Shown piece after piece: positions 4,754-31,370 of a stretch of DNA of 33,364 nt. The first letter of the stretch is position 1. The number at the start of each line of letters is the position of its first letter. Under the pieces are notes generated by a model. That model was not told the DNA's origin. It made no database searches and saw nothing but the letters and a program-made list of their open reading frames with translations. The stretch lies in NCBI GenBank assembly GCA_017471185.1, contig JAFUVZ010000069.1, positions 1 to 33,364 on the forward strand. Reading direction: 5' to 3'. A program made the position numbers and the translations under genes. Source of the DNA: Bacteroidaceae bacterium. Lineage in GTDB: Bacteria > Bacteroidota > Bacteroidia > Bacteroidales > Bacteroidaceae.

Positions 4754-4774
4754 GAAATTCTATTGACGAGAAAC

Positions 4775-8940: not shown

Positions 8941-8971
8941 GCGATAAGCACAATATTTGACCATATAGCAT

Positions 8972-9006: not shown

Positions 9007-9035
9007 GTATGCCTCATCGCGTGGCGTACACATAT

Positions 9036-9100
9036 TGCACTTTTTTCCATTCCTCTGCACAAATCTCCATCATATTATATAATATGTATGCGTAATTTTG
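9036..9100 (+). promoter_or_regulatory. Promoter with 20-base direct repeat, copy C
   Basis: The -7 element TAATTTTG is at 9093-9100. Half-sites TGCAC-TTT-TTTCCAT (9036-9050) and TGCAC-AAA-TCTCCAT (9056-9070) are head to tail with a 20-base period. The second ends 22 bases before -7. This is the best copy of the motif in the window. It lies 42 bases ahead of the first gene of the giant operon and is followed by a leader nearly the same as that of the gene at 2219. Confidence 0.78.
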
Positions 9101-12100: not shown

Positions 12101-14112
12101 CCGCGACAGTGACTAATAAGGATGGAGGTAACTATACTTATGCAGCAGAATCAAATACTGCAACGTATGAATTGACTGTCACAACTTCAGAACCTGTCAC
12201 ATACACAGTAACAAAGGGCAGTGAAAGCCATTGCGAATTTACTGTTGAACCTGTAGGAGATAACGTAACAGAAGGGGCTACGATTACTGTTAATGTTACT
12301 TCAGTAGAAGCAGGCTATTATGTGAAATACATTGGTTATGAATATTACGATGAGACCCAGGGTAATAAGAGTACAGTAAAGAAAAAAGAGTACACAGAAA
12401 GAACGGAAACAATCACAGAGACATTTGCAATGCCTGCATTGAACATAACGGTGAAAGTTGGTACTGCGAAACATACGCATAACTTTAGCTATGAAATAGG
12501 AACAGGTGATAATTCCAATGTTCTTACCGCCACTTGCAGTGCCAACGGCTGCGGTTTGTCGGGAAAGTCTGCTACCCTTACACTGACTGCTAATGGTGGA
12601 ATATACAGCGGTAGTGCGTTTGCTGCTACAACAGATCTTGATGCTTTCAATACAGCAACTGGATTAAGTGCTACTTGTTCCATCACATACACGGGAGACA
12701 ATGAAAACTACACAGAGACTGCTCCAACGAATGTTGGTAGTTATACAGCAAAAGCAACGGTAACTATTGATGGAACGTCTTATGTCTTGACTAAAGGCTT
12801 TTCAATAACTGAAGTTCCTGTTACTACCTATAACATTACGGTTCCTGCGGCAGTTAATGGTAATAGTATAACGGCAGATGTCTCATCTGCTGCTGAAAAT
12901 GCTACAGTAACGCTGACAATTGCAACCGCAGAGAATTACTCATTGGCAACGATTACTGCTAATAATGGAAATGTGACGCTCTCTGGCTCTGGTAATACAA
13001 GGACATTCACGATGCCTGCGGCTGATGTGACAATTACGGCGACGTGGACGATTATCCAGACTGACAGCCAGGACAGCAATACCAGCGAGACTTATACCGT
13101 GACGGAGTTGGGCGGTATAGAGGTGAGCAAGGTGACAAGTACGGGAGGTGCAACCTCCATCACCATTCCTGCTACTGTGGGATCAGCAAATGTAACGTCG
13201 ATTGCTCCGAATGCATTTGATAATATCACTAAGAGTGATGTTAAGTCTGTAGACCTATCGGCTACTTCGATTACAGATATCACGGTGGATCGTTCGAACG
13301 GTGTGTTCAGCGGATTCCCTGAGGAGACGATGATCTACATGCCTGCTGACAATACTGCAGCAGGACAGAAGAATGTGATTATCGGCGGCACCTGCTCGGA
13401 CTTCGAGATGAAGGATCAGAGTTCATATAATATTCCTAAAGCCTTTACCGCAACGAAGGCAACGTTGAGTCGCTCGTTTACCAGCGAGAAGTATTGTACG
13501 CTCTGCCTGCCTTATGATGTTCCCGCAACAAATCTGGGAGGTAAGATTTACGAATTTTCAAGTATTGAAGGAACGACTGTCAAGATGACGGAAGATACGA
13601 ATGGACTAAATGCTAATAAGCCGTATATCTTTGTGCCGAACAGCAATGCAAATAGTATTTCTGCAAGTTCCGTTACGATCAGTATGAGCAGTGATCCTAA
13701 AACGCCTGATACTTCTGGCTTTACCTTCAATGGTGTATTTGGCTACAAATTATTCTCATCGACAGAGATTACTAATGGCGTGTATGGCTTTGCGGCTGAT
13801 TCTGAACACGGTGCGAGTGTCGGCCAGTTCGTGAAGGCATCCTCTGGAGCCTGGATAGAAGGTATGCGAGCCTATCTGGCCTATAACGGAGACCTAAATA
13901 GTACGAGTACGGCCTCTACACGTGGGATGGCGTTGCCAGAGGTGCTGAACGTTGTTCTGGTTCATGCTAATGGCAGCACGACGAGTATCGGCAAGCTGGA
14001 GTTGATGACTGCTGAAGACGGTTCACCCGTGTATAACCTCAGTGGTCAGCGCGTGGACAAGAGCTATAAGGGCATTGTGATCCAGAATGGTAAGAAAATG
14101 ATTAAGAAATAA
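9142..14112 (+). CDS. 1656-residue modular surface protein, non-catalytic
   Basis: This protein is secreted (signal peptide MMKRLVTLALMMIAVFTLVPIQTYAQ) and built of beta modules. Residues 25-215 are a binding-like module with core LNLKAGDVVIVWHNG (Gly136-Asp137), shared with the next protein. InlB-like B repeats lie at 215-393 and 472-560. A Listeria-Bacteroides repeat (EGYTFTGWTW) lies at 394-468. A second binding-like module (573-740) ends YIYGVKFVP. An MBG-type domain spans about 844-925, a BIG2-type Ig domain about 930-1015, and a segment with H-T-H (1111-1113) and C-x4-C (1132, 1137) follows. More InlB-like sequence, a short leucine-rich-repeat-like segment (1314-1400) and a tail reading YNLSGQR ... 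IVIQNGKK complete it. I see no catalytic domain. By position it is the first gene of the giant operon; a cell-surface pectin-binding or display role is inferred. Module identities are by eye; the MBG, BIG2 and InlB calls are moderately sure. Confidence 0.85.
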   Translation: MMKRLVTLALMMIAVFTLVPIQTYAQNEATYSIEEYDFGSWTKKVAVDQTLNLESSKTSTTRKTVYLLENFVDKDQTPHSLNGRFAFEKSADTHPYGWQKFCGYSTNNTIADDLMTCGLQLKQKNLTISILNLKAGDVVIVWHNGTLTAESSEDGLYITSTNASYNGSSHSTGSTKTAGNALVSGTPYTMTSDGTFDFTYSSATESYIRKVTIKKKEYTVSAAEEITNGTVTFCKTADGEYTSTLKACEGEMVYVKAQAAESYKLATLTSGDLESLTTSEATSFTMPRKDVTISAIFEESNTPRYTLTINTPTNGQIKIGDNPATTQSYEENATITLTAEANIGYEFEKWQVKVGNEDFADVTGDNEDNIESVNGSTLTVKMTKDFMVSAVFKTTTYNITYNLSDGTNNQDNPLTYTIESNDITLQAPTKEGYTFTGWTWAGQETPEMNVTIAQGSTGNREYTANWSQDSAKPKVTVSVSDANSGTIKYIAKVDNKDTAKDFPNEGLEIDENGSVTLVAVPASSSYRLKSWNVGGVDKGNSLKLELSEITSDVSVSAEFESQSAVTAITTAKTWTFDSFTAKTELSGTASYEYQGLFINGNNNELTNLATAEVSGASAIEGEVSFEAPTSRVVLNGSLPTSNFDASNSKVNTIGNRNKNSVAFQAGVAGTVYVYMNGTYASDRNLCIYSSDNMSNPTTVALISNPSPQVVQRTVSANANIFIGVSGGTAYIYGVKFVPTPTIETISEVNISGLSAPIKGEELKNLSDLSTSTTGVSISSITWNPTTTPAAASTVYTATIVIEATSGYQFASEVSANAISEKNATITRNSDTQISVAYTFDATAADAISVTANGYSGTFDGAAHGISVTAEEGATITYRETESGDYTLTENPTYTNVGSYIVYYKVTKDNCEDVTGSKTVTINPAAGSINAFSPASGSVAMGTTGFVVTTTATGDGTITYSSSEGSVATINTTTGAVTPVAAGTTTITATVTNKDGGNYTYAAESNTATYELTVTTSEPVTYTVTKGSESHCEFTVEPVGDNVTEGATITVNVTSVEAGYYVKYIGYEYYDETQGNKSTVKKKEYTERTETITETFAMPALNITVKVGTAKHTHNFSYEIGTGDNSNVLTATCSANGCGLSGKSATLTLTANGGIYSGSAFAATTDLDAFNTATGLSATCSITYTGDNENYTETAPTNVGSYTAKATVTIDGTSYVLTKGFSITEVPVTTYNITVPAAVNGNSITADVSSAAENATVTLTIATAENYSLATITANNGNVTLSGSGNTRTFTMPAADVTITATWTIIQTDSQDSNTSETYTVTELGGIEVSKVTSTGGATSITIPATVGSANVTSIAPNAFDNITKSDVKSVDLSATSITDITVDRSNGVFSGFPEETMIYMPADNTAAGQKNVIIGGTCSDFEMKDQSSYNIPKAFTATKATLSRSFTSEKYCTLCLPYDVPATNLGGKIYEFSSIEGTTVKMTEDTNGLNANKPYIFVPNSNANSISASSVTISMSSDPKTPDTSGFTFNGVFGYKLFSSTEITNGVYGFAADSEHGASVGQFVKASSGAWIEGMRAYLAYNGDLNSTSTASTRGMALPEVLNVVLVHANGSTTSIGKLELMTAEDGSPVYNLSGQRVDKSYKGIVIQNGKKMIKK

Positions 14113-14127
14113 GAAAGGAAACAAGAT

Positions 14128-17100
14128 ATGACTAAGAGACTTCTTTCATTGGCTGTCATGATGACCATCGCCATCGGGGCGCTGGCAGACGTTGCAACGA
14201 TCGCAGGCAATCAAGCAATCACTTTTAGTGATGTTACAAGTCCGAACAACGGTATTTATCTGCACGCTGGTTCAGGAACGAGTCCGTTTAGTATTGACTC
14301 AGAGCATGCTAATGCCACTACAGGCAAGTTTTCTGATGAATTATCGACTCCATGGTCGTTGACGGATGGCAAGGTTCTGACAAGCAGCCAAGGTTGCGAC
14401 CTGTTATCTGTAGATAGTAAAGCAGCCGATGCGTCGGACGGGCCAGCTGGCTCTTTGGCCTTTAGTGTCAGTGGAGCGGGAAAACTTTATGTTATCTATG
14501 GTGCCACGTCGACATCGAAAGGTAAGTTCAACATCGTGCTGAATGGCTCGTCTCTTATGAGTGAGGAGATGGCCGGTGTCGAATTCAGCGGTCCCTTAGG
14601 TACTCGCGCTGCCAACTATACCTACACCAAGGCAGAGGCCGTTGTGGATATCACTGGTGCAGGAACTGTCTACCTCGGCGGCTCCGTGCCATACTGTATC
14701 TATGCCATCCTCTTCGTACCAAGCGGGTCGCAAGCAACGGAAAAGTCAACACCGGTGGTGTATGACTTTGCGGCAATGGAGTCGATAACATTGACAAATA
14801 ATGGGAAAGATATTAAGTTCAGTGATAATACAAATGGAGTAGGATGTCGTCGTATTGATAATGGACGTGTTTTGGTTGTGAACAATAAAGTGTCTCTCGA
14901 AACTGGTAAGGGTATAAAAGTAACCGAGACAAGCAGACCACTTGCCATTGATGGCTTGAAACAAGGTGATATACTAAGGATCGTATATAATAGTGATACT
15001 TCTGGTAATCTGACTCTTGATACATATAACTCAACAAATGGTGTTGTGATTACAGACATAAATAATGTTTCTTTTGCAGATAATATCATCCCAAGTGGTA
15101 AGGAAATTCTTATCAAGACACTGGGAGAAATAAACTATGCTGTATTCCGTATCTCAAGCACAGACATTACCATCTCGCAGATTGCCATCAACAAGGGCAT
15201 TAAGCCGAGGGTAAGCTTCAAGAGTCAGAACGGAACTTCTCTGGTCTATACGGCAAAGTTCTATGAGGGCGAGACCTTATATTATAAAGGTCCTGGCATA
15301 ACCGGTACACAGTCGGTGGAATACCCTTCTGCCAATAATGGGGAGGTGGATATCACTGCAACAGGAGAAGGTAACTTAGAGTGTTGGACAATGTTCGGTG
15401 GCGAAGAGGCTGCCAATAAATCTGAGGTTGATAGCCGCGTTGTAGCCCTGCCACAGCAGCCTGGTGTCACCTTGAAGACAACGAATGGCACTACTTCGAC
15501 CTATACCGTCACCTTTCAGGAGGGCGAGACGCTTCATTACACAGCACCGGGTGTAACAGATGAGCAAACCGTAGAATTCTCTACTACGAACAATGGGCAA
15601 GTAGATATTGAGGTAAGTGCAAATGGTAATCTCGTCTGCTGGACTACCATCGGTGAGCTGCTATCTTCTACGAATACCACAACGGTGTCGGGTATCACCA
15701 TCAATGACGATGTTGATACGGGTAAGGAGGACGAAACCTATGATTTCCAAACTTGGGTAAAGGGAGTTGGTGCTACTGGAGATCCGACGCGTCTTAGCTC
15801 TGATATCACGATTAGCGGTAATAATAAAGTCAAGTTGGTCTACTATTTCGCTGCTAATGGAAAGGAAGACCAATTGATGGATGTGCATAGCCGTTTCGCA
15901 GTTGATGCTTATTCGGAAGTGGGGTATGATAAGAACGATGACAGCAAGAGTGCACTACGCAATAAAGCAAACGGAGCAGCATTCAGAGCACCCAATATCT
16001 CAATCCGTAATCTGAAAGAAAAAGACCACGTGACTATTACCAGTGGCGTATCTGTAGAAGGAAAAGCAGCGGTTCGATTCCTTTCAACAAATGCTCATTT
16101 GAAAGGTATTGGCACAACTCCTTCAGCAGACGGCACGACTATCTGGGAAAACGGCAAGACATGGGTGATGGATGCTGATGGAAATCTTGATTTGAAGTTG
16201 GGCGACACCGATTATCAGGCTTATATCTATAAGATAACAATCACTAATCGTGAAAATGTCTCCGCAGCAACTTTTGCAACGGCAACGGACAATGAGAATC
16301 ATCTCGTTATCATTGGTGGTACGACTGATGAAGGAACAGCGAAGACCTACTACACACTTGATGGGACAGAGCCAACCACTAGTAGTACTGAAATTAATGG
16401 AGCATCTGTGATACTGACAGATTTGGCTGCATCTTGCACGGTTAAGACACTCACCGTTGGCAGTACAGGCAAGACGGCTTATGGGCGCTACAATTTCATT
16501 TACGTAAACACCATTCCATCGGCCTCCGTAGCCATTGACTTTGAGAAAGCCAAGGCCAACAATGAGGAACTGATTTTTGCAGATGACGCCATTACCGTTG
16601 GATGGAGTACCGGAACAGATAGCGGCTCAAAAAAAGAATTTTATAAATTGAATAACAACACTGCGAATCTGCCTATTGACGGGAAAATATCATGGAGAGT
16701 ACCAAGTGGAAAGTCTAAACCACAATTAGTAGAAAATGGTATCAAATCTAATGAATATGCATTTGCTATTCATGACCTGACGAAGAATGATGAGATTATT
16801 ATCATTCACAACGGAACCCTCAAGAGTTATGTAGCGACTGATGGCGATGGTATCAGTGTGGACGGGAGTAATGTACCTGCCGGTAGTGAAATAGCTACAG
16901 GTAAAACTATAAAAGTAACAAGTATCGGTGTCAACAACTCAATTGTTCTATTTCCGACAAAGAATACTGTAATTTCTGCCATTTACATCAACAAGACACC
17001 TCCCGTAAAACCTGAGCAGCCAAAGGTTTCATATAAGCAGAACAAAGACGGGAAGGCTGTTTATACAATTGCATCGGTTGATGATAATGCTATCAAGTAT

Positions 17101-20100
17101 CAGCTTGACAATACAGAAGTTGTGAGTCCGACAGAGAAGTCGGTAGATGTGGAAGTAAGTGATAAGACAACTTTGAAGGCTTGGGCTTATAATAGCGAGT
17201 TGGAATCAAACATACTTACTGTTGACCTCATGAAGACTCCGATCGTAGAGACTAATGGAAACTTTGACTTTACAAAGACAGGTCTTTCGGAGAACGTTTC
17301 TCTGGTTGTCGACGAGAGTAATGTTGCTATGACTGTTGGCAATGTCTCACTTTACAAACCAAGCCTTGAACAAGCAGCCACATTTGCAGGAAAGTTCCTG
17401 TTCCAAAAGCCAGGAACAACCAATACTGCCATCCGCAGTAACCAATTGCATATCAATGCCAATGAAACAAACAAGGAATTCTATATGGCCCTGCTGAACG
17501 TGGAGGCAGGCAAATGTCTGACAATTGCTGATGGAAATAAGCAGGTGAGCAAAGTATATATTGGTGAGAAGCAACTGACCTATGGAGAACCATTTGAAAT
17601 TGAGTCTAGCGATATAACAGAAGGCCACTTGATTTTGAAATTCGATGTATCAGCAGGCAGTGCCAGTGTGCAGAAGTTAGAGTTTTCAGACCCTGTTGCG
17701 CCTGCTGTTCCTATCTATGGTAAGTATAACCTCCGCACAATAGCCTCAGAGAAAGTAGGTGGTGATAGTGGTGAGGCTGAGATTACTCTCATTGACAGAA
17801 CAGAAACCGCCAATGGCGATAATACTGACATTAGTGGAAAGCTAACAGATAATGGTGCTATTAGTATCGTCTATAGAAAGACCGATGACGGTTCTAAAGA
17901 TTTCAAGTGGAGCAAAGCATCGGATGCAGAAACTGGCTTGAGAATGTCGAGAGGTGGAGCTAGTGAAGCCTCATTCTATATTAACAGCCTGAAAGCTGGT
18001 GATTGGTTCAAAATCGAAACTGGTGACAACCATCTTCTGTTCAACAATGCTGATTTCTATGATCTTAATGCCGGTAGTTCTACAAGCGTCATCAAAGGTG
18101 GTGTGGTTGAATCAGGACATACTTATGTGGCAAAGAAAGCTGTTTCAGCCCTTCAATTGTACTATGACACGAAGCAGCAGGGCTATCTCTATATCTATTC
18201 CGTGGAGATTTCAAATGGGGATGCTGTGCCAGCACCTGTCATTGGTAACTATGACTTTAGCAGCGGCAAGGTGACTATCACCGTAGAGAACAGTTACAAG
18301 GGGAATACACCTACTATATATTATGGTATAGGTGACGCAGAGCCGACGACGGCCTATACAGGTCCTATCAGCATCTCTGAAGCCTGCACCATCAAGGCTC
18401 TGGCAAAGGTTGGCGACCTGCAGAGCACATTGGCTGTCAAGGATGTTGTACTGGAGGCAGTGACTATTCCTGAGATTTCTGTTTCAGGCAAACAAGTAAC
18501 TATCACTGGTGGTACAAGTAATGATCCAAGCAGTAGCGTGACGACTTATTACACCCTAAACGGTGCAGAGCCAACAACAAGCAGTACGAAGTATGCTAGT
18601 GCTATCACATTAGACCAGACACGCATTGTGAAAGTGATGTCTGTGAGTTCGAGTGGAATAAAGAGTGACGTGATAACTCAGAAGGTTGTTATTGACGGAC
18701 AGACACCATCTACAGTGCTCGACTTTACCAGTGATGAGGCTCTGAAGCCGTTGGAATGGGGTCAGGACCATGTGACGGGCTACTACAATAATGGTAGTGA
18801 CAAGAGTGACGGCAACTTCAAATACATCACCAACGAACCTGTTCATGCCAAGATGATGTGGCAGTCGGACAAGAATGATACGGAGAACGCCAATAACAAT
18901 GCCGGAAACGGTATCGAGGGCATTGCCAGTGGTCGTGCCTTTGCGATTACAGACCTGGCTGTTGGCGATGTTATCTATATTACTTATACGACTACTGGCG
19001 ACAACCTGACTGCCAGCAAGCACTCTTCAAAAGGTAATACTATCAAAGTAGGCGAAAATACGGCTGAGGGTGACAATGCTCTGTTGCCGATTGCTTCTGG
19101 TGTAAAGATTGAGGTGACTTCTGTTGATGAAGAGAATAATTTTGTGGCGTTCATGCCAAACAGTAAGATGAACATCCAGAGGATAGAGATTAACCCGATG
19201 TATCAGATTACGGCAACAGCCACGAACGGCTCAATCAGTGTGAATAGCCCTGCAGGTACAGACCTTTCCACAGCTACATTTGCTCCTGGCTCGACTGTAA
19301 CACTGACAGCCACGGGTGCAAGCAGTGAATGGGTGTTCAGTCATTGGGTGGTGAATGGTATACAGACCACAGAATCTACGCTGACCTTGACGATGGACAG
19401 CAATAAGAGTGTGGAGGCCGTGTTCCGTCAACGGGTATCAGCAAACGGTGTGCCCGTGATTCTCGTTGCAGGACAGTCGAATACAGATGGACGTATCGCT
19501 GTTAGCGAGACTGCATTCCCCTATGACCTGAATCATACGCAGATTAGTTATTGCAATGGTGTAGACCAGACCAGCGAGGGTGTATTCGCCCCCTATGGAA
19601 CAACGCCCAAGTCTGACTCTGGTGAGCGTTGGGGCTATGACGCTATTATATATAATAAGGTACAAGAGTTGCTGACCGGTCAGGACTTCTATGTCATCAA
19701 GCAATCGAAGGGCAATACGGCCATCAATACGATGTGCTCTGGTAATAAAGAGCACTGGTGGAGTGCCAATCCTGTATGGCTTAGCAGAAACACATCGGCT
19801 AATCAGGGTGGACGCTCTCTACTGAAAGGCTTCCTTGATAATATCGATAAGTCTCTGAAGGCTCTGGAAGATGCCAACAAAGAGTATGACATCAAGTTCC
19901 TGATGTGGCATCAAGGTGAAGCTGATCACGGCAAGCAGAATGAGTATGAAATGCAGATGAAAGCGGTAGTCAATGAGCTCCGTAATTATCTGGTAAAACG
20001 TACCAATAATAATAAATACTCAAATCTGCCGATTATCTTGGGTGGAATTGCAGATGTCAGCAAGGAGTATAGTGCGGGTGTAGAGGCTGGCAAACAGAGT

Positions 20101-23100
20101 CTGGCTGAAGCCGATGCAAATATTTATTATGCTCCAACAGGAACTCTGACCCTGGAAACAGACTTCCGTTCAGATCAGGTGCACTTCAATGTAACAGGTG
20201 CTGGCAAAATTGCGAACTCTGTTTGGGATATTATTACCAGCAACAACTTGATGACAGGTATTACACTTGCTGGCTCTGACATGCCCGCTGAGAATCCATT
20301 AACAGAAGATGTGGTGAACAAGACGACGCTTTGGACGTTCAATGAAGCGAAGGCACTGACATCAAATGCAAGCATTAATGGCCTATATCCACATGGAAAA
20401 ATCAATGTAAAGGCAAAGGACTATGGTGAGACGACACTTACTGACGGAACTCCAATCAATGCCGCATTTGCAGCAGAGACACCCACAGCGCAAAGAACAA
20501 TCTCAGAGGGTCTGACAGCAGGTAATGATGCTGTGACCTGTACTTACGGTGTCAATGTGAGTGGCGAAGGTACGTTCATGGCGCTTATCAAGCCAATGGC
20601 TGTACCAGAGAATGAGACGCATGCAAAGATCTGGCTGAACGGAGAAGTGCTTCAGTCTATTCCGTTCACCACTACTGACTACATTCAATTGGCAGCTAAG
20701 TCTTCTGGTGTAGGAACATTCTATATTACATGTGATATTAAGTATGAACTGATTGCCGCCAAATTCATTGCAGGTTCCTCAAACCTTGAGATTATGACCC
20801 CGCCAACGATTCAGGCTGGTGAGAAAGTGAATACTATTAAGATCATACCTGGCACTTCTGATTTGGCCGATGCTGTTGTGAAGACCTACTACACAATCGA
20901 TGACAGCACACCAACAGCAGAAAGCACACCTTATACTGGAGCAGACATAGAATTGACGGAGGATTGTGTCGTCAGAGCAGTCAGTATCAGCAGCAAGGGC
21001 GGAAAAGCCTATTCAGAACCTTATACATTTGAAAAAGGTATTCCTGGACAGGTAATCAATGCCTCTAAGAACTTCCAAACCTGCTATGCAGATGATGCCC
21101 TCGACTTTACCGGAATAACAGCTATTGAGGCTTTTATCGTCATGGCACCATCAGACATCATAAATACTGAAGCTAAACCTGTGAATGCCAACAATGCATT
21201 AAGCCGAGGCAGTGGTGATTCTGGCATACCATCAGGTCTGCAGCTTGTCAGGGTCTATAAGGTCCCCAAGGGAACTGCCTTCCTTGTGAAGTTCTTAGAC
21301 ACTACTAATGAAAATGTCACAGTACCTTATATGGTTACTGCTATAAATGGCATCAGTACTGCTACTGAAACCATTGCTGTCAGCGAGAACCTGCTGAAAC
21401 ATGCGACACAAGCCGTGGGTATTGCCAGTGGGAAAAAGCTTTTTGAGGCAAGTAGCACTGCCGATAGTTTCGTCTTTAACGGAACTAATTCTGTCGGTGC
21501 AGGGAAATACTATCTTGATGTTCCAACAACAGCCGTGGGTGAAATGACCGTATCTATCAAGATACAAGAGGAGAATGACATGCCATATCTGGTGGAAATT
21601 GACACCTTTGAAGTCTCTGAGAGCGTCGTCTATGACTTTGCCAATACGACGGACAACATCAATGTTGATGATAAGACAAAGACCAGAAGCCTGATCTATA
21701 AAGGCGCAGACAAGGCTGCAGGCTTCCGATATGTACTGAATGGCAGCGAGCCCTTACGTGTACTGACCTATAGTAACACAGGCGGTTTTACTCAGGGCAG
21801 TGGTGTCACCGTGAAGAGCTCTCGCCAATTCGCCATCGAAGGTCTGAAGACAGGTGACATGATCCGCATCATCCACAACGGGACAGTGACAGATGCCAAT
21901 AACGCCTCCTCAGGAACGACAATCACCGACCTGAAGGGCAATGCCATTACGGGTGGGATTGCCAGCGGTCAAGCCGTTAAAGTGGCGACGGCAGACGCTA
22001 CCAACAACTATGCTGTATTCATGGCAAATGAGGGTGACCTGACTATCGCACTGATTGCCATCAACCAAGCTATTGCTCCAAACGTAGAGAAAGATGTGGA
22101 ACAGTCGTCAAGTACAGCATATAAATATAAGGTGAGTTTCTATGAAGGCGAGACGCTACACTATACCTCTCCTGACATATCGGGCGAGCAGACGATAAGC
22201 CATACAGGCAACCCTGCTACAATCACGGTGACGAAGAATGGTGAACTGAAAGTATGGACGACCTATGGTGAGACTGCCTCAGAGAAGGTGACAAAAGCCA
22301 TCGACTTCTCGACAGAGACAGCCATTGTCAACGTAGTCCCTGGTTACCAGACCTATTATACTGATACTGCGCTCGACTTTACAGAAGTCAGCAAGGACGA
22401 ACTGAGGGCATATATTGTCAGGACCAAAGAGGCATCTTCCACCAGAAATATGACAAGGGGTGCCTCGACAGCACAGTTGGAACTGCTCGAAGTGATGAAG
22501 GTGCCTGCTGGTACAGCTCTGATCCTTTGGAGCAAGAAAGCGTCAAGCGTGGAGATTCCAAAGGCCAATGAGAGTGCCACTGCAAAGATTGTGGTGGTTA
22601 CAGGTGCAGAGGTGGCATCAGAGGTAAACTTGCTGAAAAAAGCCTCAAAGACAAAGAAGGCTGATACTGACGAGACCATCTTTGTACCGAATACAGATGG
22701 TGGATTCAGCTTTGAATACTCTGCATTTGTGACACGTGGTGACATCTATCTTGAGCTGTCAGACCTAAACCTTGATGATAATGCCAGCGAGATCGTTTTA
22801 GGAGAGGTAAGTGCTGACGGAACTGTCGTGCCATTGGTCACAGAAGAAACGGACGTGGATAATGCTACCGTTGCCTTAGATACTGAGAATACCACTGCCA
22901 CGAAAAAGGTCTATGTGTTCAAGTTCCCTGCGTCACAAAAGCTTTATTACAAACGTCCTGGACAGGATGATACATTCAGAAGCCAAAGCTATAAAGACGA
23001 AACCTTCTCGGTAAACGTCACCAATAATGGCTACTTGGAATTCTATACAGAAGACATCAGTTCAAAAGAAACATCGAAAAAGAACGCTGTAGAGATCAGT

Positions 23101-25506
23101 ACGCTGGCTCCGAAGGCAACTCTCACTAAGATTGGCGACAGTTCGTCGACCTACGAGATCACCTTCTTCGACGGTGCCACGTTGTATTATACACTCGGTA
23201 ACGGTGCTGAGCAATCAGTAAGCACTGGCAGTCCTGCAGAGATTACGGTAACGGCTGGCGGTAAACTGGCTGCTTATTCGAAAACCAGTAGTGAGACTTC
23301 GGATACACTGTCTGCCAATGTCTATGCACCGACACCAAGCATCGCTGATAATGGAAAATACGATTTCAGTACGCTGAACAAGAAGATTGGTACAGACTAT
23401 GTGCTGACCACGACAGGTTATGATGGTACTGTTGATGTTGGCGACCTGACTCTGAATACTCCGAATGGACTGACCAAAAAGACGCTCGACATTTTTGCAT
23501 TCCTTGCAGCACGAGCTGACGGCAAGGGTGAGTCGACAGACTGGCGACTGCTGAATGCTGGTCGTCTGAGGGCGACAAAGTCAGCGAACACAAAGTACCT
23601 GGCTATTCTGAACGTGGAAAAAGATAAGTATGTAACCCTGACCTATTCTGGCACTGCTGTGAAATATGAAACAACAGGATCCGCTAAGTTAGAAGAAGGT
23701 ACAACCACACTGACCAGCAAACAAAGCTATCAAATAACAAACGGCGGTACATTGTTGCTAAGTATCGCTGCGGATGAAAGCAATAACTGTGACATTACCG
23801 TGATTGGTATCTCAGATTCTCCAAACAGCTCAAGTACTGACTCTTCAGACTCTAAGTCAGATGACAACAAGGATAACAGCAAAAAGAGTTCTTCACCAGT
23901 TTCTATTGACTTCTACCAACTAGAGAACGATACAACCTCCATTTACAGATTCACTTGGGAGAAAGGTTCGCTGTTACACTATATCTTAGAATCAGAGGGT
24001 ACAGAACAGACTGGCGGAACGAGCGGAACTTACGACCTCACCATCAGTAAGAGTGACAAAGTAGAAGCCTGGATAACCATGGGGAGTGATACCTCGAAGG
24101 TGGTTTCTGCTACACTCTTTGCTCCTACACCCGCGCCTACAATAAGCGGTAATATCGACTTCTTTGAGACCATTGAAGATCTACCTGCAGATATGCCTGT
24201 AACACTTGATATGAATCGAATGGTAACAATCAGAGGTCAAAAACTCTATATGCCTAATGCTCTGACTTATCAGACATTCAAAGACAGGTTCGCTTTCTCC
24301 GAACTCGAAAAGTCGAGTACACTCAGGATCCGCAAGAACCGTACAATGATGTTTGCCAAGGGTAAGGATGTGATGATGGGCATCCTAAATCTAAAACAAG
24401 GAGAGGTTGTCGCCTTCGATTATACAGGCAATATCCAGATTATGAACAGCGAAGTCTTGAGGATGGAGTCGGTTTCCGCCAGAACCAGAGCTTCTGTATC
24501 GGGAACTCTAATGAAGTCTGGAGCAGCATATATTGTGAAAGAAGACTGTGACCTGCTACTGAATGTGGTTTTAGCCGACTCGGCTGTAACCGTTAATAAG
24601 ATGTATGTAGGTTCTGTTCCCCATTCCTCTACTCCGGCGGCTATCGACTTTGTGACAGCTGGGGAAGAATTTGAATCCCTGACACTTGAAGGTTCCACAG
24701 GTGTGTATTACTATAACAAGGAGAAGGCCCAGAACTTCGTGTGGATAACCAATAACACTGAAGAACTGCCCATAAATAATAAGATATCCACAGAAAATGG
24801 AAATGGCACCATTACTACGCAGGGGTTGACAGCCGGTGGACGACGGATAGCTATTCACCATCTGGCAAAAGGTGACAAGATCAAACTCCGCTTCTCTGGT
24901 GGCTCCGTTACCTTTGAAGGACATAATATGAATAGCAATATCATTAGTGTAGAGGGAAGGCGACTCACTCCACAGGACACCCTGCAATCTGGCGATATCA
25001 TTACCGTTGATCAGGTGAACTACCTATACAATTATGTCGTACTGAAATTGGACAGTAAGGCCAGCATCAATGGCATATACATCAATGAGGAAGAGACTGA
25101 AAAAGTCTCCATGCCGACGATTGTTGATAAGGGTAATAACACTGTACTCATCACGGCTGGTGTCAGCTCGATAGGCAATCAGGTGACTACCTGTTATACC
25201 ACTGACGGTTCTGAACCTACAAGAATGAACGGCACAAGTGGCCCATATGATGAGTTTGACGTGGAACTGCTGGGCGGTGGCCTCATAACCATCAAGGCTG
25301 TCAGCTATACTGATGACGGTTTATACAGCAGGGTAGCAGAACTAACCATCTTTGCTGACGAACGTGTCAAAGAAACGAGAAGCGCAGGAACAAGAAAAGT
25401 CACAGGAACCTACGACATGCAGGGTAACAAGATAAATATTATCCAACCCGGTAAGTTCTATATCAGAGATGGTAAGAAAGTTTACTTCGGTAGAAACAGT
25501 AATTAA
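14128..25506 (+). CDS. Giant 3792-residue modular protein with embedded acetylesterase domain
   Basis: This secreted protein is roughly 400 kDa, with signal peptide MTKRLLSLAVMMTIAIGALA. The only catalytic unit I see is an SGNH / sialate-O-acetylesterase-type domain at about 1775-2045. It has GQSN with Ser1784, WHQGEAD at 1927-1933, and Asp2016 and His2019 in DQVHF. It should remove acetyl esters, plausibly from pectin. An InlB-like repeat (1690-1768) precedes it. Ten modules with a core of type A-I-x-x-L-x-x-G-D lie near residues 280, 632, 887, 1128, 1291, 1613, 2576, 3165, 3425 and 3582. Six modules of type EGETLHY lie near 380, 465, 2673, 2935, 3015 and 3279. Five chitobiase-C-terminal-like units (YYTxDGxEPT) lie near 741, 1398, 1474, 2254 and 3690. 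Two 170-residue units begin near 2300 and 2730. A Ser/Asp/Lys linker spans about 3230-3258. The tail YDMQGNK ... FYIRDGKK resembles a sorting signal. It starts 15 bases after the previous stop. Confidence 0.88.
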   Translation: MTKRLLSLAVMMTIAIGALADVATIAGNQAITFSDVTSPNNGIYLHAGSGTSPFSIDSEHANATTGKFSDELSTPWSLTDGKVLTSSQGCDLLSVDSKAADASDGPAGSLAFSVSGAGKLYVIYGATSTSKGKFNIVLNGSSLMSEEMAGVEFSGPLGTRAANYTYTKAEAVVDITGAGTVYLGGSVPYCIYAILFVPSGSQATEKSTPVVYDFAAMESITLTNNGKDIKFSDNTNGVGCRRIDNGRVLVVNNKVSLETGKGIKVTETSRPLAIDGLKQGDILRIVYNSDTSGNLTLDTYNSTNGVVITDINNVSFADNIIPSGKEILIKTLGEINYAVFRISSTDITISQIAINKGIKPRVSFKSQNGTSLVYTAKFYEGETLYYKGPGITGTQSVEYPSANNGEVDITATGEGNLECWTMFGGEEAANKSEVDSRVVALPQQPGVTLKTTNGTTSTYTVTFQEGETLHYTAPGVTDEQTVEFSTTNNGQVDIEVSANGNLVCWTTIGELLSSTNTTTVSGITINDDVDTGKEDETYDFQTWVKGVGATGDPTRLSSDITISGNNKVKLVYYFAANGKEDQLMDVHSRFAVDAYSEVGYDKNDDSKSALRNKANGAAFRAPNISIRNLKEKDHVTITSGVSVEGKAAVRFLSTNAHLKGIGTTPSADGTTIWENGKTWVMDADGNLDLKLGDTDYQAYIYKITITNRENVSAATFATATDNENHLVIIGGTTDEGTAKTYYTLDGTEPTTSSTEINGASVILTDLAASCTVKTLTVGSTGKTAYGRYNFIYVNTIPSASVAIDFEKAKANNEELIFADDAITVGWSTGTDSGSKKEFYKLNNNTANLPIDGKISWRVPSGKSKPQLVENGIKSNEYAFAIHDLTKNDEIIIIHNGTLKSYVATDGDGISVDGSNVPAGSEIATGKTIKVTSIGVNNSIVLFPTKNTVISAIYINKTPPVKPEQPKVSYKQNKDGKAVYTIASVDDNAIKYQLDNTEVVSPTEKSVDVEVSDKTTLKAWAYNSELESNILTVDLMKTPIVETNGNFDFTKTGLSENVSLVVDESNVAMTVGNVSLYKPSLEQAATFAGKFLFQKPGTTNTAIRSNQLHINANETNKEFYMALLNVEAGKCLTIADGNKQVSKVYIGEKQLTYGEPFEIESSDITEGHLILKFDVSAGSASVQKLEFSDPVAPAVPIYGKYNLRTIASEKVGGDSGEAEITLIDRTETANGDNTDISGKLTDNGAISIVYRKTDDGSKDFKWSKASDAETGLRMSRGGASEASFYINSLKAGDWFKIETGDNHLLFNNADFYDLNAGSSTSVIKGGVVESGHTYVAKKAVSALQLYYDTKQQGYLYIYSVEISNGDAVPAPVIGNYDFSSGKVTITVENSYKGNTPTIYYGIGDAEPTTAYTGPISISEACTIKALAKVGDLQSTLAVKDVVLEAVTIPEISVSGKQVTITGGTSNDPSSSVTTYYTLNGAEPTTSSTKYASAITLDQTRIVKVMSVSSSGIKSDVITQKVVIDGQTPSTVLDFTSDEALKPLEWGQDHVTGYYNNGSDKSDGNFKYITNEPVHAKMMWQSDKNDTENANNNAGNGIEGIASGRAFAITDLAVGDVIYITYTTTGDNLTASKHSSKGNTIKVGENTAEGDNALLPIASGVKIEVTSVDEENNFVAFMPNSKMNIQRIEINPMYQITATATNGSISVNSPAGTDLSTATFAPGSTVTLTATGASSEWVFSHWVVNGIQTTESTLTLTMDSNKSVEAVFRQRVSANGVPVILVAGQSNTDGRIAVSETAFPYDLNHTQISYCNGVDQTSEGVFAPYGTTPKSDSGERWGYDAIIYNKVQELLTGQDFYVIKQSKGNTAINTMCSGNKEHWWSANPVWLSRNTSANQGGRSLLKGFLDNIDKSLKALEDANKEYDIKFLMWHQGEADHGKQNEYEMQMKAVVNELRNYLVKRTNNNKYSNLPIILGGIADVSKEYSAGVEAGKQSLAEADANIYYAPTGTLTLETDFRSDQVHFNVTGAGKIANSVWDIITSNNLMTGITLAGSDMPAENPLTEDVVNKTTLWTFNEAKALTSNASINGLYPHGKINVKAKDYGETTLTDGTPINAAFAAETPTAQRTISEGLTAGNDAVTCTYGVNVSGEGTFMALIKPMAVPENETHAKIWLNGEVLQSIPFTTTDYIQLAAKSSGVGTFYITCDIKYELIAAKFIAGSSNLEIMTPPTIQAGEKVNTIKIIPGTSDLADAVVKTYYTIDDSTPTAESTPYTGADIELTEDCVVRAVSISSKGGKAYSEPYTFEKGIPGQVINASKNFQTCYADDALDFTGITAIEAFIVMAPSDIINTEAKPVNANNALSRGSGDSGIPSGLQLVRVYKVPKGTAFLVKFLDTTNENVTVPYMVTAINGISTATETIAVSENLLKHATQAVGIASGKKLFEASSTADSFVFNGTNSVGAGKYYLDVPTTAVGEMTVSIKIQEENDMPYLVEIDTFEVSESVVYDFANTTDNINVDDKTKTRSLIYKGADKAAGFRYVLNGSEPLRVLTYSNTGGFTQGSGVTVKSSRQFAIEGLKTGDMIRIIHNGTVTDANNASSGTTITDLKGNAITGGIASGQAVKVATADATNNYAVFMANEGDLTIALIAINQAIAPNVEKDVEQSSSTAYKYKVSFYEGETLHYTSPDISGEQTISHTGNPATITVTKNGELKVWTTYGETASEKVTKAIDFSTETAIVNVVPGYQTYYTDTALDFTEVSKDELRAYIVRTKEASSTRNMTRGASTAQLELLEVMKVPAGTALILWSKKASSVEIPKANESATAKIVVVTGAEVASEVNLLKKASKTKKADTDETIFVPNTDGGFSFEYSAFVTRGDIYLELSDLNLDDNASEIVLGEVSADGTVVPLVTEETDVDNATVALDTENTTATKKVYVFKFPASQKLYYKRPGQDDTFRSQSYKDETFSVNVTNNGYLEFYTEDISSKETSKKNAVEISTLAPKATLTKIGDSSSTYEITFFDGATLYYTLGNGAEQSVSTGSPAEITVTAGGKLAAYSKTSSETSDTLSANVYAPTPSIADNGKYDFSTLNKKIGTDYVLTTTGYDGTVDVGDLTLNTPNGLTKKTLDIFAFLAARADGKGESTDWRLLNAGRLRATKSANTKYLAILNVEKDKYVTLTYSGTAVKYETTGSAKLEEGTTTLTSKQSYQITNGGTLLLSIAADESNNCDITVIGISDSPNSSSTDSSDSKSDDNKDNSKKSSSPVSIDFYQLENDTTSIYRFTWEKGSLLHYILESEGTEQTGGTSGTYDLTISKSDKVEAWITMGSDTSKVVSATLFAPTPAPTISGNIDFFETIEDLPADMPVTLDMNRMVTIRGQKLYMPNALTYQTFKDRFAFSELEKSSTLRIRKNRTMMFAKGKDVMMGILNLKQGEVVAFDYTGNIQIMNSEVLRMESVSARTRASVSGTLMKSGAAYIVKEDCDLLLNVVLADSAVTVNKMYVGSVPHSSTPAAIDFVTAGEEFESLTLEGSTGVYYYNKEKAQNFVWITNNTEELPINNKISTENGNGTITTQGLTAGGRRIAIHHLAKGDKIKLRFSGGSVTFEGHNMNSNIISVEGRRLTPQDTLQSGDIITVDQVNYLYNYVVLKLDSKASINGIYINEEETEKVSMPTIVDKGNNTVLITAGVSSIGNQVTTCYTTDGSEPTRMNGTSGPYDEFDVELLGGGLITIKAVSYTDDGLYSRVAELTIFADERVKETRSAGTRKVTGTYDMQGNKINIIQPGKFYIRDGKKVYFGRNSN

Positions 25507-25515
25507 GATGAAAGA

Positions 25516-27138
25516 ATGAAAAAGGTATTGATGATGGCACTCATGTTGTCGACTATGCTGTCGGCAAAAGCCACAAGTTACTATATCTCGCCTAAGGGCA
25601 ATAATTCTAACAGCGGTCTGACTGCGAAGAAAGCATTTGCAACGCTCAGCGTAGCCCAGACACTGGTAGTACCTGGCGATACTGTATTCATCCTGCCTGG
25701 AACATACAAACTGACCAATGACGATGTCATGGGTGAAGAGGTGGCCAGCTCGACTGTTACCTACAAAGTGGTCTTTGATTTGAATAAGAGTGGAGATCTA
25801 GAGACACCCATCTACTATATCGGCGTCATTGATAAAGAGACGGGAAAACGACCGGTTTTTGACCTCACACAAGTCTCCATGGAGGGCTTCCGCATAACAG
25901 GGTTCCTAGTAAGAGGCGATTTCCTGATACTTAAAAACTTCGAGGTTGTTGGTATACAGGTGGATGCAAGTTTACACGGCAGTACCAGAAAGACGCAGTC
26001 GGAAAATATCCGTGTAACTAACGGCAGTTTCAATACCTTTGAGAACATTGCCTGTCATGATGGTATGGGCATTGGGTTTTATCTGACAAAGAAATCTGCC
26101 TGCAACTTGTTCGTCAACTGCGATGGATATAATAACTACGACCCATTGACTGATCTGACTCCGAAAGACGGAGACATTCCTCGGGAAGGAGCTATGGGTA
26201 CTGGGGGTAACAACGATGGGTTTGGTTGTCATGTTAATAACGATAGTCCTGGAAATGTCTTTATTGGTTGTCGTGCGTGGAATAATGCTGATGATGGCTA
26301 TGACCTGATAAACTGCTTTTCTAAGACAACTTTCTGCTATAGTATTGCCTATAAGAACGGATATGATGCGGACAATAAGGGAAGAGGTGACGGCAATGGA
26401 TTTAAGGCAGGTGGATATGGCATGGATACTGTGAATGTTAAAATAGATAGTAAAAGTGTGCCGATGCACGAAGTGTATCATTGCATTGCAGCATCAAACA
26501 AAACAAACGGCATTTATAGTAACCACCATCTAGGAGGTGTCTGGTTTCATGAAAACACTTCCTATCGCAATGGTAGTTTCAACTATAGTCTGGTGAACCG
26601 TATGGGACCTGGTAAAGACGAAGCCGTTGATGTGAATGGCTATAATCATCGCTTGGAATATAATCTCTCTATGGTAAGCGATGGAAAAGACAACCATGTG
26701 ACTTCATTACGAGGCGACCATAGTTATAACATCCTGACTGGTAATACTTTCTACTGGGTAGACAAGAACAGTGGCGGCTGGGCTTATACTGCATATGGAA
26801 ACTCTATTTTTGAGAGCACAAAGGTTGCTGATTTTATTGCACCACGTGATGATGACGGTATGCTTTCAGAAACGACCCTGGCAGTGATGAGGCAAAAGAA
26901 CTACTTGGGTTTAGGATGCTCTTTCGAGTCATATCAAGCTACTATCACAAGATTAAGAGAATTGGCGGGAGCAGAGATTTATATCAGAGCAACGGGGATA
27001 ATTCCTCCTGTGAATACCTGTGAAGATTATTCTGGAACCCAGAATGTGTGGTACGACTTACAAGGACGCAAAATCCATCAGAAGCCAACACAAAAAGGGC
27101 TATATATACATAATGGTAAGAAGATAATCATCAAATAA
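25516..27138 (+). CDS. Pectate/rhamnogalacturonan lyase, PL9 family
   Basis: This is a 540-residue secreted right-handed beta-helix enzyme with signal peptide MKKVLMMALMLSTMLSAKA and the usual beta-helix start YYISPKGNNSNSG. It should cleave galacturonate-containing pectin by beta-elimination. In PL9 (Pel9A type) four Asp bind calcium and a Lys is the base. Here Asp234 (NNDGFG), Asp259, Asp260 and Asp263 (ADDGYDL) reproduce the 0, +1, +4 spacing, and Lys297 in GNGFKAGG fits the catalytic base. All key residues are present, so it should be active. Bacteroides homologs in rhamnogalacturonan loci act on the RG-I backbone, but whether this one prefers homogalacturonan cannot be told. The C-terminus (YDLQGRK ... 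GLYIHNGKK) is the sorting-type tail. It lies 9 bases after the giant gene. Confidence 0.9.
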   Translation: MKKVLMMALMLSTMLSAKATSYYISPKGNNSNSGLTAKKAFATLSVAQTLVVPGDTVFILPGTYKLTNDDVMGEEVASSTVTYKVVFDLNKSGDLETPIYYIGVIDKETGKRPVFDLTQVSMEGFRITGFLVRGDFLILKNFEVVGIQVDASLHGSTRKTQSENIRVTNGSFNTFENIACHDGMGIGFYLTKKSACNLFVNCDGYNNYDPLTDLTPKDGDIPREGAMGTGGNNDGFGCHVNNDSPGNVFIGCRAWNNADDGYDLINCFSKTTFCYSIAYKNGYDADNKGRGDGNGFKAGGYGMDTVNVKIDSKSVPMHEVYHCIAASNKTNGIYSNHHLGGVWFHENTSYRNGSFNYSLVNRMGPGKDEAVDVNGYNHRLEYNLSMVSDGKDNHVTSLRGDHSYNILTGNTFYWVDKNSGGWAYTAYGNSIFESTKVADFIAPRDDDGMLSETTLAVMRQKNYLGLGCSFESYQATITRLRELAGAEIYIRATGIIPPVNTCEDYSGTQNVWYDLQGRKIHQKPTQKGLYIHNGKKIIIK

Positions 27139-27150
27139 AAGAAGAATACA

Positions 27151-28233
27151 ATGAGAAAAAGAATCTGCCGACTATTCTCAATCGGTCTTGTAACAGCTTG
27201 TGGACTACTGACAACTTCCTGCAGCAAGGAGTCGCCAAATGGTGACGTAGATATCCTGTCAGGAGATATGATGATTGTTGATGTCAACGGAACGAAGATG
27301 TTTTTCCTTGATAATCACGACGGAACAGTCAGTGTGACCTATGATCGGCGCAACCCCATGCATAAGACTGAAAACAATACTTATGCCCTTACCGACTATA
27401 CCGGCGACATCATAGTTCCGTCGAGCATATCTTTCAGTGGTAACTCGTATCTGGTGACAGGTGTAACAGAGGCTGCTTTTATTAACAATACCCAGCTTAC
27501 AAGATTGACCCTACCATCAAGTGTCAAAGTTGTAGGAGAGATGGCATTCTTCGGATGTTCGGCTTTGCTGGAAGTTACCCTGCCTGAAGGGCTGACAGCT
27601 ATACCTGACTATTGTTTCCAGAATTGCAAAGCTATGACGACCATCCACATGCCGCAGCACCTGAACAAAATTGGAAAGGATGCTTTTAAAAGTTGTACGA
27701 AACTGGAGAGACTGACCATTCCTGAAGGCATAACGGATATTCCCGCAGGGGCATTCAGCGGGCTCAGTGGTCTCACAAAACTCACCTTGCCGTCTTCGCT
27801 GAAGAACATTGGGCCGAACGCATTCTCAGGATGCAGTAGGGTGACATATATAGATATTCCCTCTGGAGTGACAGAACTTTCTGATTCTGTATTCTTCAAT
27901 TGCAGTGGTCTTTTGATGGTAAGTCTTCCGGAGTCGCTGACGAAGTTAGGCAGTAGTACCTTTGGCGGATGCCGTTCTCTAGTGGAATTGGACATTCCTG
28001 AGTCTGTCAAGGAGATCGGTCCTCTCTGCTTCTGCTCTTATAATGCAAATGGTGAGTCAAACTGGAAACGATTAACACTTAATATCAAATCGACAACCCC
28101 ACCATTATTAACGGGTTCTATTGCAAACCAGACAGATCGTAAACGTATCGTGGTGCCCAGAGGCTATCGCGACGTGTATCTGGAAACCGCATATTGGAAT
28201 GAGTTCACCCAGGTTATGGAAAGAAATTATTAA
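27151..28233 (+). CDS. BspA-type leucine-rich-repeat lipoprotein
   Basis: This is a 360-residue lipoprotein. The signal peptide ends at LLTTSC with lipid-anchored Cys24, followed by SKES, which could favour surface export. After a linker of about 80 residues come about seven LRR_5-type (BspA-like) repeats of some 23 residues. They have the pattern L-T-x-L-x-L-P-x-x-x-x-x-I-G-x-x-A-F-x-x-C, running to about residue 300. A capping region ends with IVVPRGYRDVYLETAYW. BspA-like repeats mediate binding to proteins or glycans. It sits where a SusE/F-type surface glycan-binding protein might be expected and is 12 bases from susC, so a role in substrate capture or adhesion is inferred. No enzyme motif is visible. 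Confidence 0.85.
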   Translation: MRKRICRLFSIGLVTACGLLTTSCSKESPNGDVDILSGDMMIVDVNGTKMFFLDNHDGTVSVTYDRRNPMHKTENNTYALTDYTGDIIVPSSISFSGNSYLVTGVTEAAFINNTQLTRLTLPSSVKVVGEMAFFGCSALLEVTLPEGLTAIPDYCFQNCKAMTTIHMPQHLNKIGKDAFKSCTKLERLTIPEGITDIPAGAFSGLSGLTKLTLPSSLKNIGPNAFSGCSRVTYIDIPSGVTELSDSVFFNCSGLLMVSLPESLTKLGSSTFGGCRSLVELDIPESVKEIGPLCFCSYNANGESNWKRLTLNIKSTTPPLLTGSIANQTDRKRIVVPRGYRDVYLETAYWNEFTQVMERNY

Positions 28234-28245
28234 TAAAAACAGTAT

Positions 28246-31200: not shown

Positions 31201-31356
31201 GTGAATGCGAGTGTGGAGAATGTCTTTATGATTGACAATTATGATGGTGGATATTCTCCTGAGTCAAACAACTCCACTTCTCGTATCAGCAGCTATGACT
31301 ATGGAGCTTATCCCCAGGCTCGTACTTTCAACTTAGGCGTAAATTTTCAATTCTAA
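28246..31356 (+). CDS. susC: SusC-like TonB-dependent outer-membrane transporter
   Basis: This 1036-residue outer-membrane channel imports oligosaccharides with its SusD partner. The order is a signal peptide (MRNKLLTTFVLLAMAVAMTAQ), a carboxypeptidase-regulatory-like domain at about 25-100 (VTGTVLDTMGEPMIGATV) and a TonB-box-like segment EELVVVGYG near 103-110. The plug domain follows, with the SusC signature IEVLKDASSSAIYGSRGANG near 204-223, then a long beta-barrel ending in the typical terminal Phe (NLGVNFQF). Length and features are normal. It lies 12 bases after the LRR gene and 14 before susD. Unusually, it is fifth in its operon rather than first. The imported ligand is inferred from neighbours to be pectic, probably rhamnogalacturonan fragments. 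Confidence 0.96.
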   Translation: MRNKLLTTFVLLAMAVAMTAQEMKKVTGTVLDTMGEPMIGATVKPYGEQGGTVTDLDGKFQLNVPQGTKQLTITYIGYKTMTVNLKGNTVNVVMSEDTNMMEELVVVGYGSVKKGDVTNAVAQVKGDDLADRPVSNIASALQGELAGVEVRTTSGAPGSGVQISVRGATSINEDGTSNPLFVVDGVPMDDDFDLITLNPQDIESIEVLKDASSSAIYGSRGANGVVIITSKKGSDDGKVNVSFKADFSLSSPERYIGVMSPEEWIEWRSKSNDVRYVNNYGTQGATANDDYMTRLRFTSGTNYVNDPRWSMPDYGGLALIDWQKEIFQTAFAQSYNLSVSSGNKTSNYRASLGYVNQEGIVITTNFQRINLKLSAQTTLFDKLTIGVDLAPQFSVTKGGDVDGKDNAAMSALTMTPVAEPGVGIHTGAEPYSRYIYAGGGTSPVEVMERTKYRSESVRINASAFLRYQITKGLTGEILGSWLFNNSERHRFVPGSLSSYWASYPEGYYTTGRWNGSRTHKYLGQVLLTFDRTFGMHHLNVVAGASLENTRDGSSWTLNATQFPNDAIEGFDMNTARITTANTTITTQDRLISYFTRAEYGFDSRYLLTGSIRRDGSSRFGAKNHWGTFPAISAAWRLSNEHFWKESWVMNQAKIRVSYGVNGSNAIPVNSAYGMLTESNYSQDGNLITGYTPSSRDNEELGWQKTDSWNVGLDLGFFHNRISLAVDYYKKSIRDMLYKITLPADMGYTSGYTNVGNIENQGVELELKTENLTGKLRWTTSLSIGYNKNKVKDLGANSTIYTGYDGSTQVIEVGRTAGEYYLYDAVGVYNSEADLMNYPTQTGSVVGSVRYRDANGDGQITEADRVYMGHPQPTFTYGMTNTFKYKNWDFSFLITAQTGGKIYGALGRAFDRQGMGTSINVLKKWRNMWFSESDTGDGQTPNAWVSGISEEYDNRWLYSSDFIKLKNVNIGYRFKMPKKFYVKSIRVNASVENVFMIDNYDGGYSPESNNSTSRISSYDYGAYPQARTFNLGVNFQF

Positions 31357-31370
31357 ATAACGAAACATAT

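Follow-up and report, generated by a model that had tools for sequence, protein, structure and literature searches.

The window analysed here is the whole 33,364-base contig of a draft bin (G000; 80% complete, 85 contigs). It encodes, in this order, a 1,656-residue InlB/Big_2 protein, a giant modular esterase, a PL9-type lyase, an LRR lipoprotein, SusC and SusD, and from the upstream giant to SusD the genes lie on one strand with intergenic gaps of 9-15 bases. The upstream part of the window also holds an oxidoreductase gene. The main genes, with the basis for their assignment, are:

2219..4753, + strand: PL11 rhamnogalacturonan lyase (domain match)
4763..6553, + strand: GH2-type glycosidase (domain match)
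9142..14112, + strand: upstream giant, 1,656 aa, InlB-type repeats and Big_2, KxxxK tail (domain matches)
14128..25506, + strand: giant modular SASA esterase, 3,792 aa, ATG start, no internal stop (ORF and translation)
25516..27138, + strand: PL9-type (Pel9A-like) lyase ending in a KxxxK tail, 9 bases downstream of the giant (domain match, tail inspection)
27151..28233, + strand: BspA-type LRR protein with lipobox (domain match)
28246..31356, + strand: SusC-like TonB-dependent transporter (domain match)
31371..32990, + strand: SusD-like lipoprotein (domain match)

The locus was compared with that of a metagenome-assembled genome, 'Prevotella sp. isolate RGIG3308 Goat_Reticulum' (label G158), a comparison of only two assemblies. 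Over two long matches, at 1083-9081 and 17800-33364, the window is 97-98.5% identical to an RGIG3308 contig. Another contig of the bin (G000:C1) was compared through a 20-kb piece, which matches RGIG3308 in patches only, the two longest at 67-69%. The simplest reading of this pattern is that the window contig is probably misbinned; possibly it was recently transferred into the genome of the bin, and tetranucleotide profiles did not separate misbinning from bin membership. The search covered 158 genomes of the genus to which the bin is assigned, and the genus of RGIG3308 is larger. A PDDEXK_2-type transposase gene (7969-8940), 99.4% identical in RGIG3308, lies after the enzyme genes and before the giants, and a non-coding stretch near the left end of the contig (301-387) is matched at 78-82% by several other places in the RGIG3308 genome.

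The RGIG3308 cluster adds a hybrid two-component regulator, a PL4, two more GH2 (three in all), a deacetylase-type gene and a lone SASA esterase of 301 aa (L031:14536-15441 (-), G158:C123:54536-55441), the counterpart of which in the strain of the window would fall just past the left edge. PL9 enzymes can act on rhamnogalacturonan-I (RG-I). The presence of PL11, PL4, PL9-type and GH2 enzymes in the cluster makes RG-I the likely substrate, so that the pectin locus proposed in the initial annotation takes on an RG-I-directed look. In the RG-I scheme described for B. thetaiotaomicron, the periplasmic BT4158 takes acetyl off RG-I galacturonate (PMC8002723).

The esterase domain and the module chain

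The giant is one open frame without a stop, as had been annotated, with a computed mass of 406.8 kDa and a pI of 4.8. A signal peptide without lipobox was judged by eye at about residues 1-20. Compared as a whole with solved structures, the protein gave no notable match (best E 0.23), and none of its six Pfam matches at E<=1 was a cohesin or dockerin of the cellulosome scaffoldin type. In the titles and abstract starts of the literature on giant Bacteroidetes proteins and on modular esterases in Prevotella pectin loci, the giant was not described. Its features, all within the frame, are:

14191..14721, + strand: head module H, aa 22-198 (module profile; DNA comparison with RGIG3308)
14716..17800, + strand: variable block, aa 197-~1225, modules A, B, B, A3, C, A, B, A2 and the start of A3 (comparison with RGIG3308)
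18703..19197, + strand: module A, aa 1526-1690, one of five (module profile)
19201..19431, + strand: weak InlB-repeat-like module, aa ~1692-1768 (tile 1701 similar to part of the RGIG3308 1,815-aa protein, E 1e-8)
19444..20262, + strand: SASA acetylesterase domain, aa ~1773-2045
19477..19479, + strand: catalytic Ser1784 of GQSN (alignment with SASA domains)
19714..19716, + strand: Asn1863 in the GGT block (alignment with SASA domains)
20173..20184, + strand: catalytic Asp2016 and His2019 (alignment with SASA domains)
20401..20775, + strand: weak head-like module, aa 2092-2216 (22% identity to the head)
21034..22767, + strand: modules D (2303-2468), A (2497-2647), B (2650-2723) and D (2727-2880) (module profiles)
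within 22861..25332, + strand: modules B (2912-2984), B (2994-3063), A2 (3065-3186), B (3256-3328), A2 (3330-3448), A (3501-3654) and C (3656-3735) (module profiles)
25405..25503, + strand: C-terminal tail, aa 3760-3792, of Prevotella type and resembling a T9SS end, without terminal KxxxK (sequence)

The single acetylesterase domain of the initial annotation corresponds to a match to Pfam SASA (PF03629) at residues 1777-2028, with an E value of 7.8e-11 and 42.4 bits, above the curated cut-off of 24.8. The domain was placed by this family, and no CAZy family was given by the tools used. It was aligned with 53 others of the SASA family taken from the fetched loci, after removal of duplicates and of fragments shorter than 180 aa. 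The positions earlier proposed as catalytic turned out to be exact: the columns of Ser1784, Asp2016 and His2019 are conserved in 53, 52 and 52 of the 53 domains, respectively. The giant keeps every catalytic block, namely GQSN, WHQGE.D and D..H, and the QGE is found in all 53 relatives. It departs from them in some less conserved columns and most sharply at Asn1863, which is Gly in 52 relatives and Ala in one. In the GGT (oxyanion) block the first Gly is thus kept and the second is Asn1863, and the oxyanion Gly could be either. The oxyanion contact described for related CE20 enzymes consists of a Gly main-chain amide and a Gln side chain (PMC12313940), and the main chain of Asn1863 could in principle still supply the first of these contacts. 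Among solved structures the best match to the domain was 1zmb, an acetylxylan-esterase-related enzyme, at E 0.016.

The module chain was delineated by tiling the giant against itself, with off-diagonal matches down to E 2e-29, and by Pfam, which recognises five stretches of Fn3_assoc (E 1.6e-26). Profiles seeded by eye from the self-matches, and in this respect partly circular, count 25 modules: five A, seven B, five C (Fn3_assoc type), two D, three A2, two A3 and one H. With the InlB-like and head-like modules, which rest on weaker alignments, the total is about 27, in agreement with the two dozen first estimated. The four A modules other than that at 1526-1690 lie at residues 207-356, 798-956, 2497-2647 and 3501-3654. 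The sequence together with Fn3_assoc suggests that the modules are beta modules. Iterated profiles also find A, B, C, A2 and H modules in the 1,815-aa protein of RGIG3308; this protein was absent from the first seeds and joined the iterated profiles, and plain BLAST tiles match it independently.

The initial annotation took the flanks to be binding modules, a view that gained no support here, since no carbohydrate-binding module was recognised in the giant by Pfam, and the profiles of modules A and B matched none among solved structures. The module B profile gave nothing below E 0.19. For module A, Tako8, which we take to be a designed propeller, was matched at E 5.9e-5 and 7.6e-5 with no single stretch passing alone, and was not accepted as a relative; an antifreeze-protein chain, MpAFP_RII, was rejected at E 0.069. 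Profile comparison gave no support for treating the head and A modules as one family.

Matches of A type at E<=1e-5 were found in 17 of 249 genomes of the genus of RGIG3308, and outside RGIG3308 they lie in frames of 256-1,971 aa with much weaker scores. A single A+B query against 399 genomes of the family of the bin returned the window and one weak match only. Plasmids and viral contigs were considered as a home for the locus: one plasmid record holds a 36% identical esterase, none matched the variable block, and pattern scans gave no viral relatives. One genome (G643) carries two adjacent large A-module proteins of 1,564 and 1,382 aa (L150:447-5141 (-) and L150:5982-10130 (-)), the two being almost identical in the terminal residues compared at either end.

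About 93% of the giant is not esterase, and this, together with Asn1863 at a near-invariant Gly and the second SASA enzyme in the RGIG3308 cluster, would fit a protein that is chiefly an adhesin or surface fibre with a weak or dead esterase as passenger, the variation of its front serving escape from phage or host recognition and not substrate choice. The intact triad, GQSN and WHQGE.D argue against such a reading, as do the esterase domain DNA, 99.8% identical to RGIG3308 with one nonsynonymous change, and the oxyanion contact reported for CE20 enzymes, a main-chain amide and Gln (PMC12313940), the first of which an Asn main chain could in principle supply. We regard it as unlikely.

Variable front and constant end in two assemblies

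RGIG3308 has two genes at the place of the giant, encoding proteins of 1,815 aa and 2,807 aa (frame 2,812, esterase at about 788-1060). At the DNA level, residues 1-197 of the giant share 98.6% identity with the 1,815-aa protein and residues 1551-3792 share 99.6% with the 2,807-aa protein, the latter with 17 synonymous and 10 nonsynonymous differences (dN 0.0019, dS 0.011). The frame and the esterase are in this way seen again in a second assembly. For residues 197-1200 there is no DNA-level match in either RGIG3308 gene, only module paralogs at the protein level, mostly at 25-45% identity, and residues 1201-1550 form a mosaic of 67-100%. The dS of 0.42 against a dN of 0.074 in stretch 1225-1550 points to diverged alleles under constraint, with no burst of amino-acid change. 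As RGIG3308 has a 2,807-aa version and a separate 1,815-aa neighbour, the length of 3,792 aa and the mid-chain position of the esterase are, on this comparison, those of one allele and no fixed design.

The upstream giant behaves similarly, being 99-100% identical to RGIG3308 at residues 1401-1656, a mosaic at 851-1400 (49-87%) and unrelated at the front. PL9, LRR, SusC and SusD are 99.75-100% identical between the two assemblies and PL11 98.3%. That the fronts of both tandem giants are wholly different while these neighbours are nearly identical may also be counted in favour of an adhesin. It is tempting to speculate that the tandem giants are a recombining array, where strains attach one or another whole set of N-terminal, putatively binding modules to an invariant body with the deacetylase and the export tail, although this is rather doubtful; equally doubtful is the associated idea that the swap diversifies what the cell surface binds or shows.

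Part of the difference could also be an artefact. Strain mixing could contribute, since RGIG3308 is a metagenome-assembled genome and the assembly of the window is an incomplete draft. In the extreme case the 3,792-residue form would be partly an assembly product, the reads of two strains with the head and the constant part in common having been joined, and the real genes would be of 1,815 and 2,807 aa as in RGIG3308. The constant part of ~6.7 kb at 99.6% exceeds a short-read pair, so that mixing of strains across it is possible, and the contig also appears to be misbinned. However, the front block is a continuous open frame of homologous modules and stands with the esterase and the C-terminus in one 11.4 kb frame, and the front ends without a sharp cut inside a module A3 that is 67-74% homologous to that of RGIG3308. 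These features make an assembly origin very unlikely in our view.

Within the GH2 gene, a patch at 5083-6333 has 80-94% identity to RGIG3308 in surroundings of 96-100%, and is perhaps another recombination tract. A further genome, G672, has a pair of tailed paralogs, 413 and 407 aa long (L163:2053-3294 (-) and L163:10631-11854 (-)), which share their last ~50 residues exactly and have almost the same signal peptide but differ in between, again constant ends around a variable middle.

Tail and export

The tail of the giant belongs to the common Prevotella type KGLYIxNGKKxxxK. The sorting-type tail proposed at first is in part recovered: the PGKFYI stretch resembles a T9SS end, but the terminal KxxxK is absent in both assemblies and the type A CTD models PF18962 and TIGR04183 were not matched by the last 80 aa at E<=10, where only unrelated weak matches appeared. 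T9SS signals are described as carrying two motifs, PxGxYVV and KxxxK, within their final ~22 residues (PMC5445135), and the last residues, notably the lysines of motif E, as needed for efficient secretion (PMC10202324). The Pfam/NCBIfam CTD models matched none of the five tails tried, and since the four others were missed as well, these models may be blind to such short tails. Both PL9 and the upstream giant end in KxxxK. In the 12 A-type regions fetched, the profiles match 11 ORFs in 10 regions, and all 11 carry the tail type, ten ending in KxxxK and one in Arg.

A PorU-type T9SS sortase was found in RGIG3308 (952 bits) and in three of three other genomes of its genus, and none was found in the bin or in G007 and G041, two genomes of the genus of the bin; two of 14 control genomes matched below the cut-off. 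SprA_N is present in 112 of 120 genomes of the genus of RGIG3308, and SprA was not found in RGIG3308 itself or in the bin. TIGR04189, searched without a positive control, gave nothing in either of the two. A literature search joining rhamnogalacturonan, Prevotella, C-terminal domain and type IX secretion found no paper.

The initial description of the giant as cell-bound gained no firm support, the protein having no lipobox, no terminal KxxxK in its T9SS-like tail and no CTD model match. The same absence of lipobox and KxxxK would fit a giant that is freely secreted or periplasmic, its degenerate tail meaning release or no export across the outer membrane, the more so as motif-E lysines are reported to be needed for efficient T9SS secretion (PMC10202324). 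Against this, both flanking proteins, PL9 and the upstream giant, end in KxxxK, and RGIG3308 keeps the identical odd tail, which for that reason is not a sequencing slip. We consider a freely secreted or periplasmic protein quite unlikely.

Proposed role and related systems

The reading that we tentatively favour, and which falls somewhat short of probable, is that the giant deacetylates pectin at the outer surface (or after T9SS release) as part of an RG-I locus, its enzyme being carried on an exchangeable scaffold. The SASA-type SGNH esterase would act outside the cell, taking O-acetyl groups off pectin and thereby allowing the PL9-type and PL11 lyases to cut it and SusC/SusD to take up the fragments. 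A second, stand-alone SASA enzyme of 301 residues, such as that in the RGIG3308 cluster, would finish deacetylation elsewhere, probably in the periplasm. The module chain would keep the enzyme on or near the substrate and the cell, and the tandem giants would hold their C-terminal part constant while recombination exchanges or lengthens the front parts. We infer the activity, substrate, export route, anchoring and glycan binding of the giant, as well as recombination as the cause of its variable front.

The deacetylase role is suggested by the SASA match above cut-off, the catalytic motifs, the tight gene gaps and the RG-I enzymes of the cluster; the low dN relative to dS over residues 1551-3792, from only 27 changes, is consistent with constraint. 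Export finds some support in PorU in RGIG3308, SprA_N in its genus and the tail type of all 11 module ORFs. Asn1863, the missing KxxxK and CTD match, the absence of SprA in RGIG3308 and of SprA and PorU in the bin, the lack of a recognised binding module and the lack of a giant in three other loci with SusD relatives all speak against.

Those loci were found with SusD, relatives of which at E<=1e-60 occur in four of 259 genomes. The best beyond RGIG3308, in G672, is 54-56% identical and the PL9-LRR-SusC-SusD order is kept, and no giant was found within the 40 kb read of each of the loci in G672, G675 and G718. Just upstream of PL9, G672 encodes a tailed protein of 413 aa, and its SusD is followed by two fimbrillin-like proteins in which a lipobox was seen by eye. 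The 413-aa protein was considered as a minimal giant and dropped, the module profiles giving no match at E<=0.01 and the head and D profiles probabilities of 1.6 and 0.2 over very shallow alignments. Near the SusCD relative of G718, inspection by eye shows a 1,204-aa ORF (L166:3057-6671 (-)), the start of which looks Cas9-like by motif, and CRISPR-like repeats (L167, about 12900-20000).

Sus-type loci are commonly portrayed as having small surface lipoproteins dedicated to binding. Should one 400-kDa chain carry both the deacetylase and its modules, and should close strains exchange its front, the surface side of a pectin locus would change much more quickly in evolution than the transporter and lyases, with consequences for the partitioning of acetylated pectin among rumen Prevotella or for their evasion of phage. 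Should the swapping prove to be an assembly effect, the case would still caution that long reads must confirm the lengths of modular giants taken from draft assemblies.

Regarding its size, the expectation that carbohydrate esterases have a few hundred residues agrees with our searches, in which most other SASA frames have 250-1,000 aa. SASA matches occur in 15 of 158 genomes of the genus of the bin (its own included; other frames 295-621 aa), in 31 of 399 genomes of its family (other frames 267-948 aa) and in 69 of 398 genomes of the genus of RGIG3308. The last set comprises 77 matches, with 44 frames of 250-400 aa, 19 of 401-1,000 aa, 12 of 1,126-1,665 aa (from 11 genomes), one of 157 aa and that of RGIG3308 at 2,812. 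Large SASA proteins recur, and the forms in the window and RGIG3308 are the longest seen, well above the next at 1,665.

Like the SASA/SGNH carbohydrate esterases (PF03629), the giant has the GQSN serine block, WHQGE.D and D..H, and its domain is 26-42% identical to other Bacteroidales SASA domains, most of which lie in ~300-aa frames. Unlike them, the domain sits within 3,792 aa and has Asn1863 for Gly. The SGNH fold is reported as common to CE6 and CE20 (PMC12313940).

With the large SASA fusions (PL9-SASA-GDSL, GH2-SASA, GH127-SASA and SASA-GH115) the giant shares the placement of SASA within a large plant-cell-wall protein, some with the same tail type, and these fusions in other genomes of the genus of RGIG3308 tie the family to plant-cell-wall degradation. 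Six of the 12 large frames were scanned, and five of them have a second catalytic domain (PL9 and GDSL; GH2; GH127 twice; GH115) and no second enzyme was recognised in the sixth (1,378 aa); the fusions are less than half the size of the giant, in which a second catalytic domain was not recognised. A protein of 1,647 aa in the genus of RGIG3308 (L102:7136-12079 (+)) combines a PL9-like lyase, a SASA esterase and a GDSL esterase.

The giant may also be compared with SusE/SusF-position proteins, being an accessory protein of a Sus-type locus. A flippase-type gene and no lipoprotein directly follows SusD in RGIG3308, while G672 has its fimbrillin-like pair and no giant, a contrast which weakly and indirectly suggests that giants and SusE/F-position lipoproteins are alternatives, as was first proposed. 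The giant itself is not SusE/F-like in anchor or position: it has no lipobox, is encoded upstream of PL9 and SusC and contains an enzyme.

Large modular enzymes of rumen Bacteroidetes with a proposed T9SS exit have been described in 'Candidatus Paraporphyromonas polyenzymogenes' and its kin, whose CAZymes differ in reaching up to ~1,900 aa and having several catalytic GH5, archetypical PULs being said to be absent (PMC5831590). The variable front finally recalls the hypervariable module of Thermococcales, which is archaeal and discussed as a conflict system, and to which the likeness is by description alone: there, too, a large protein, of multiple Ig domains, belongs to a hypervariable gene module (PMC8416519).
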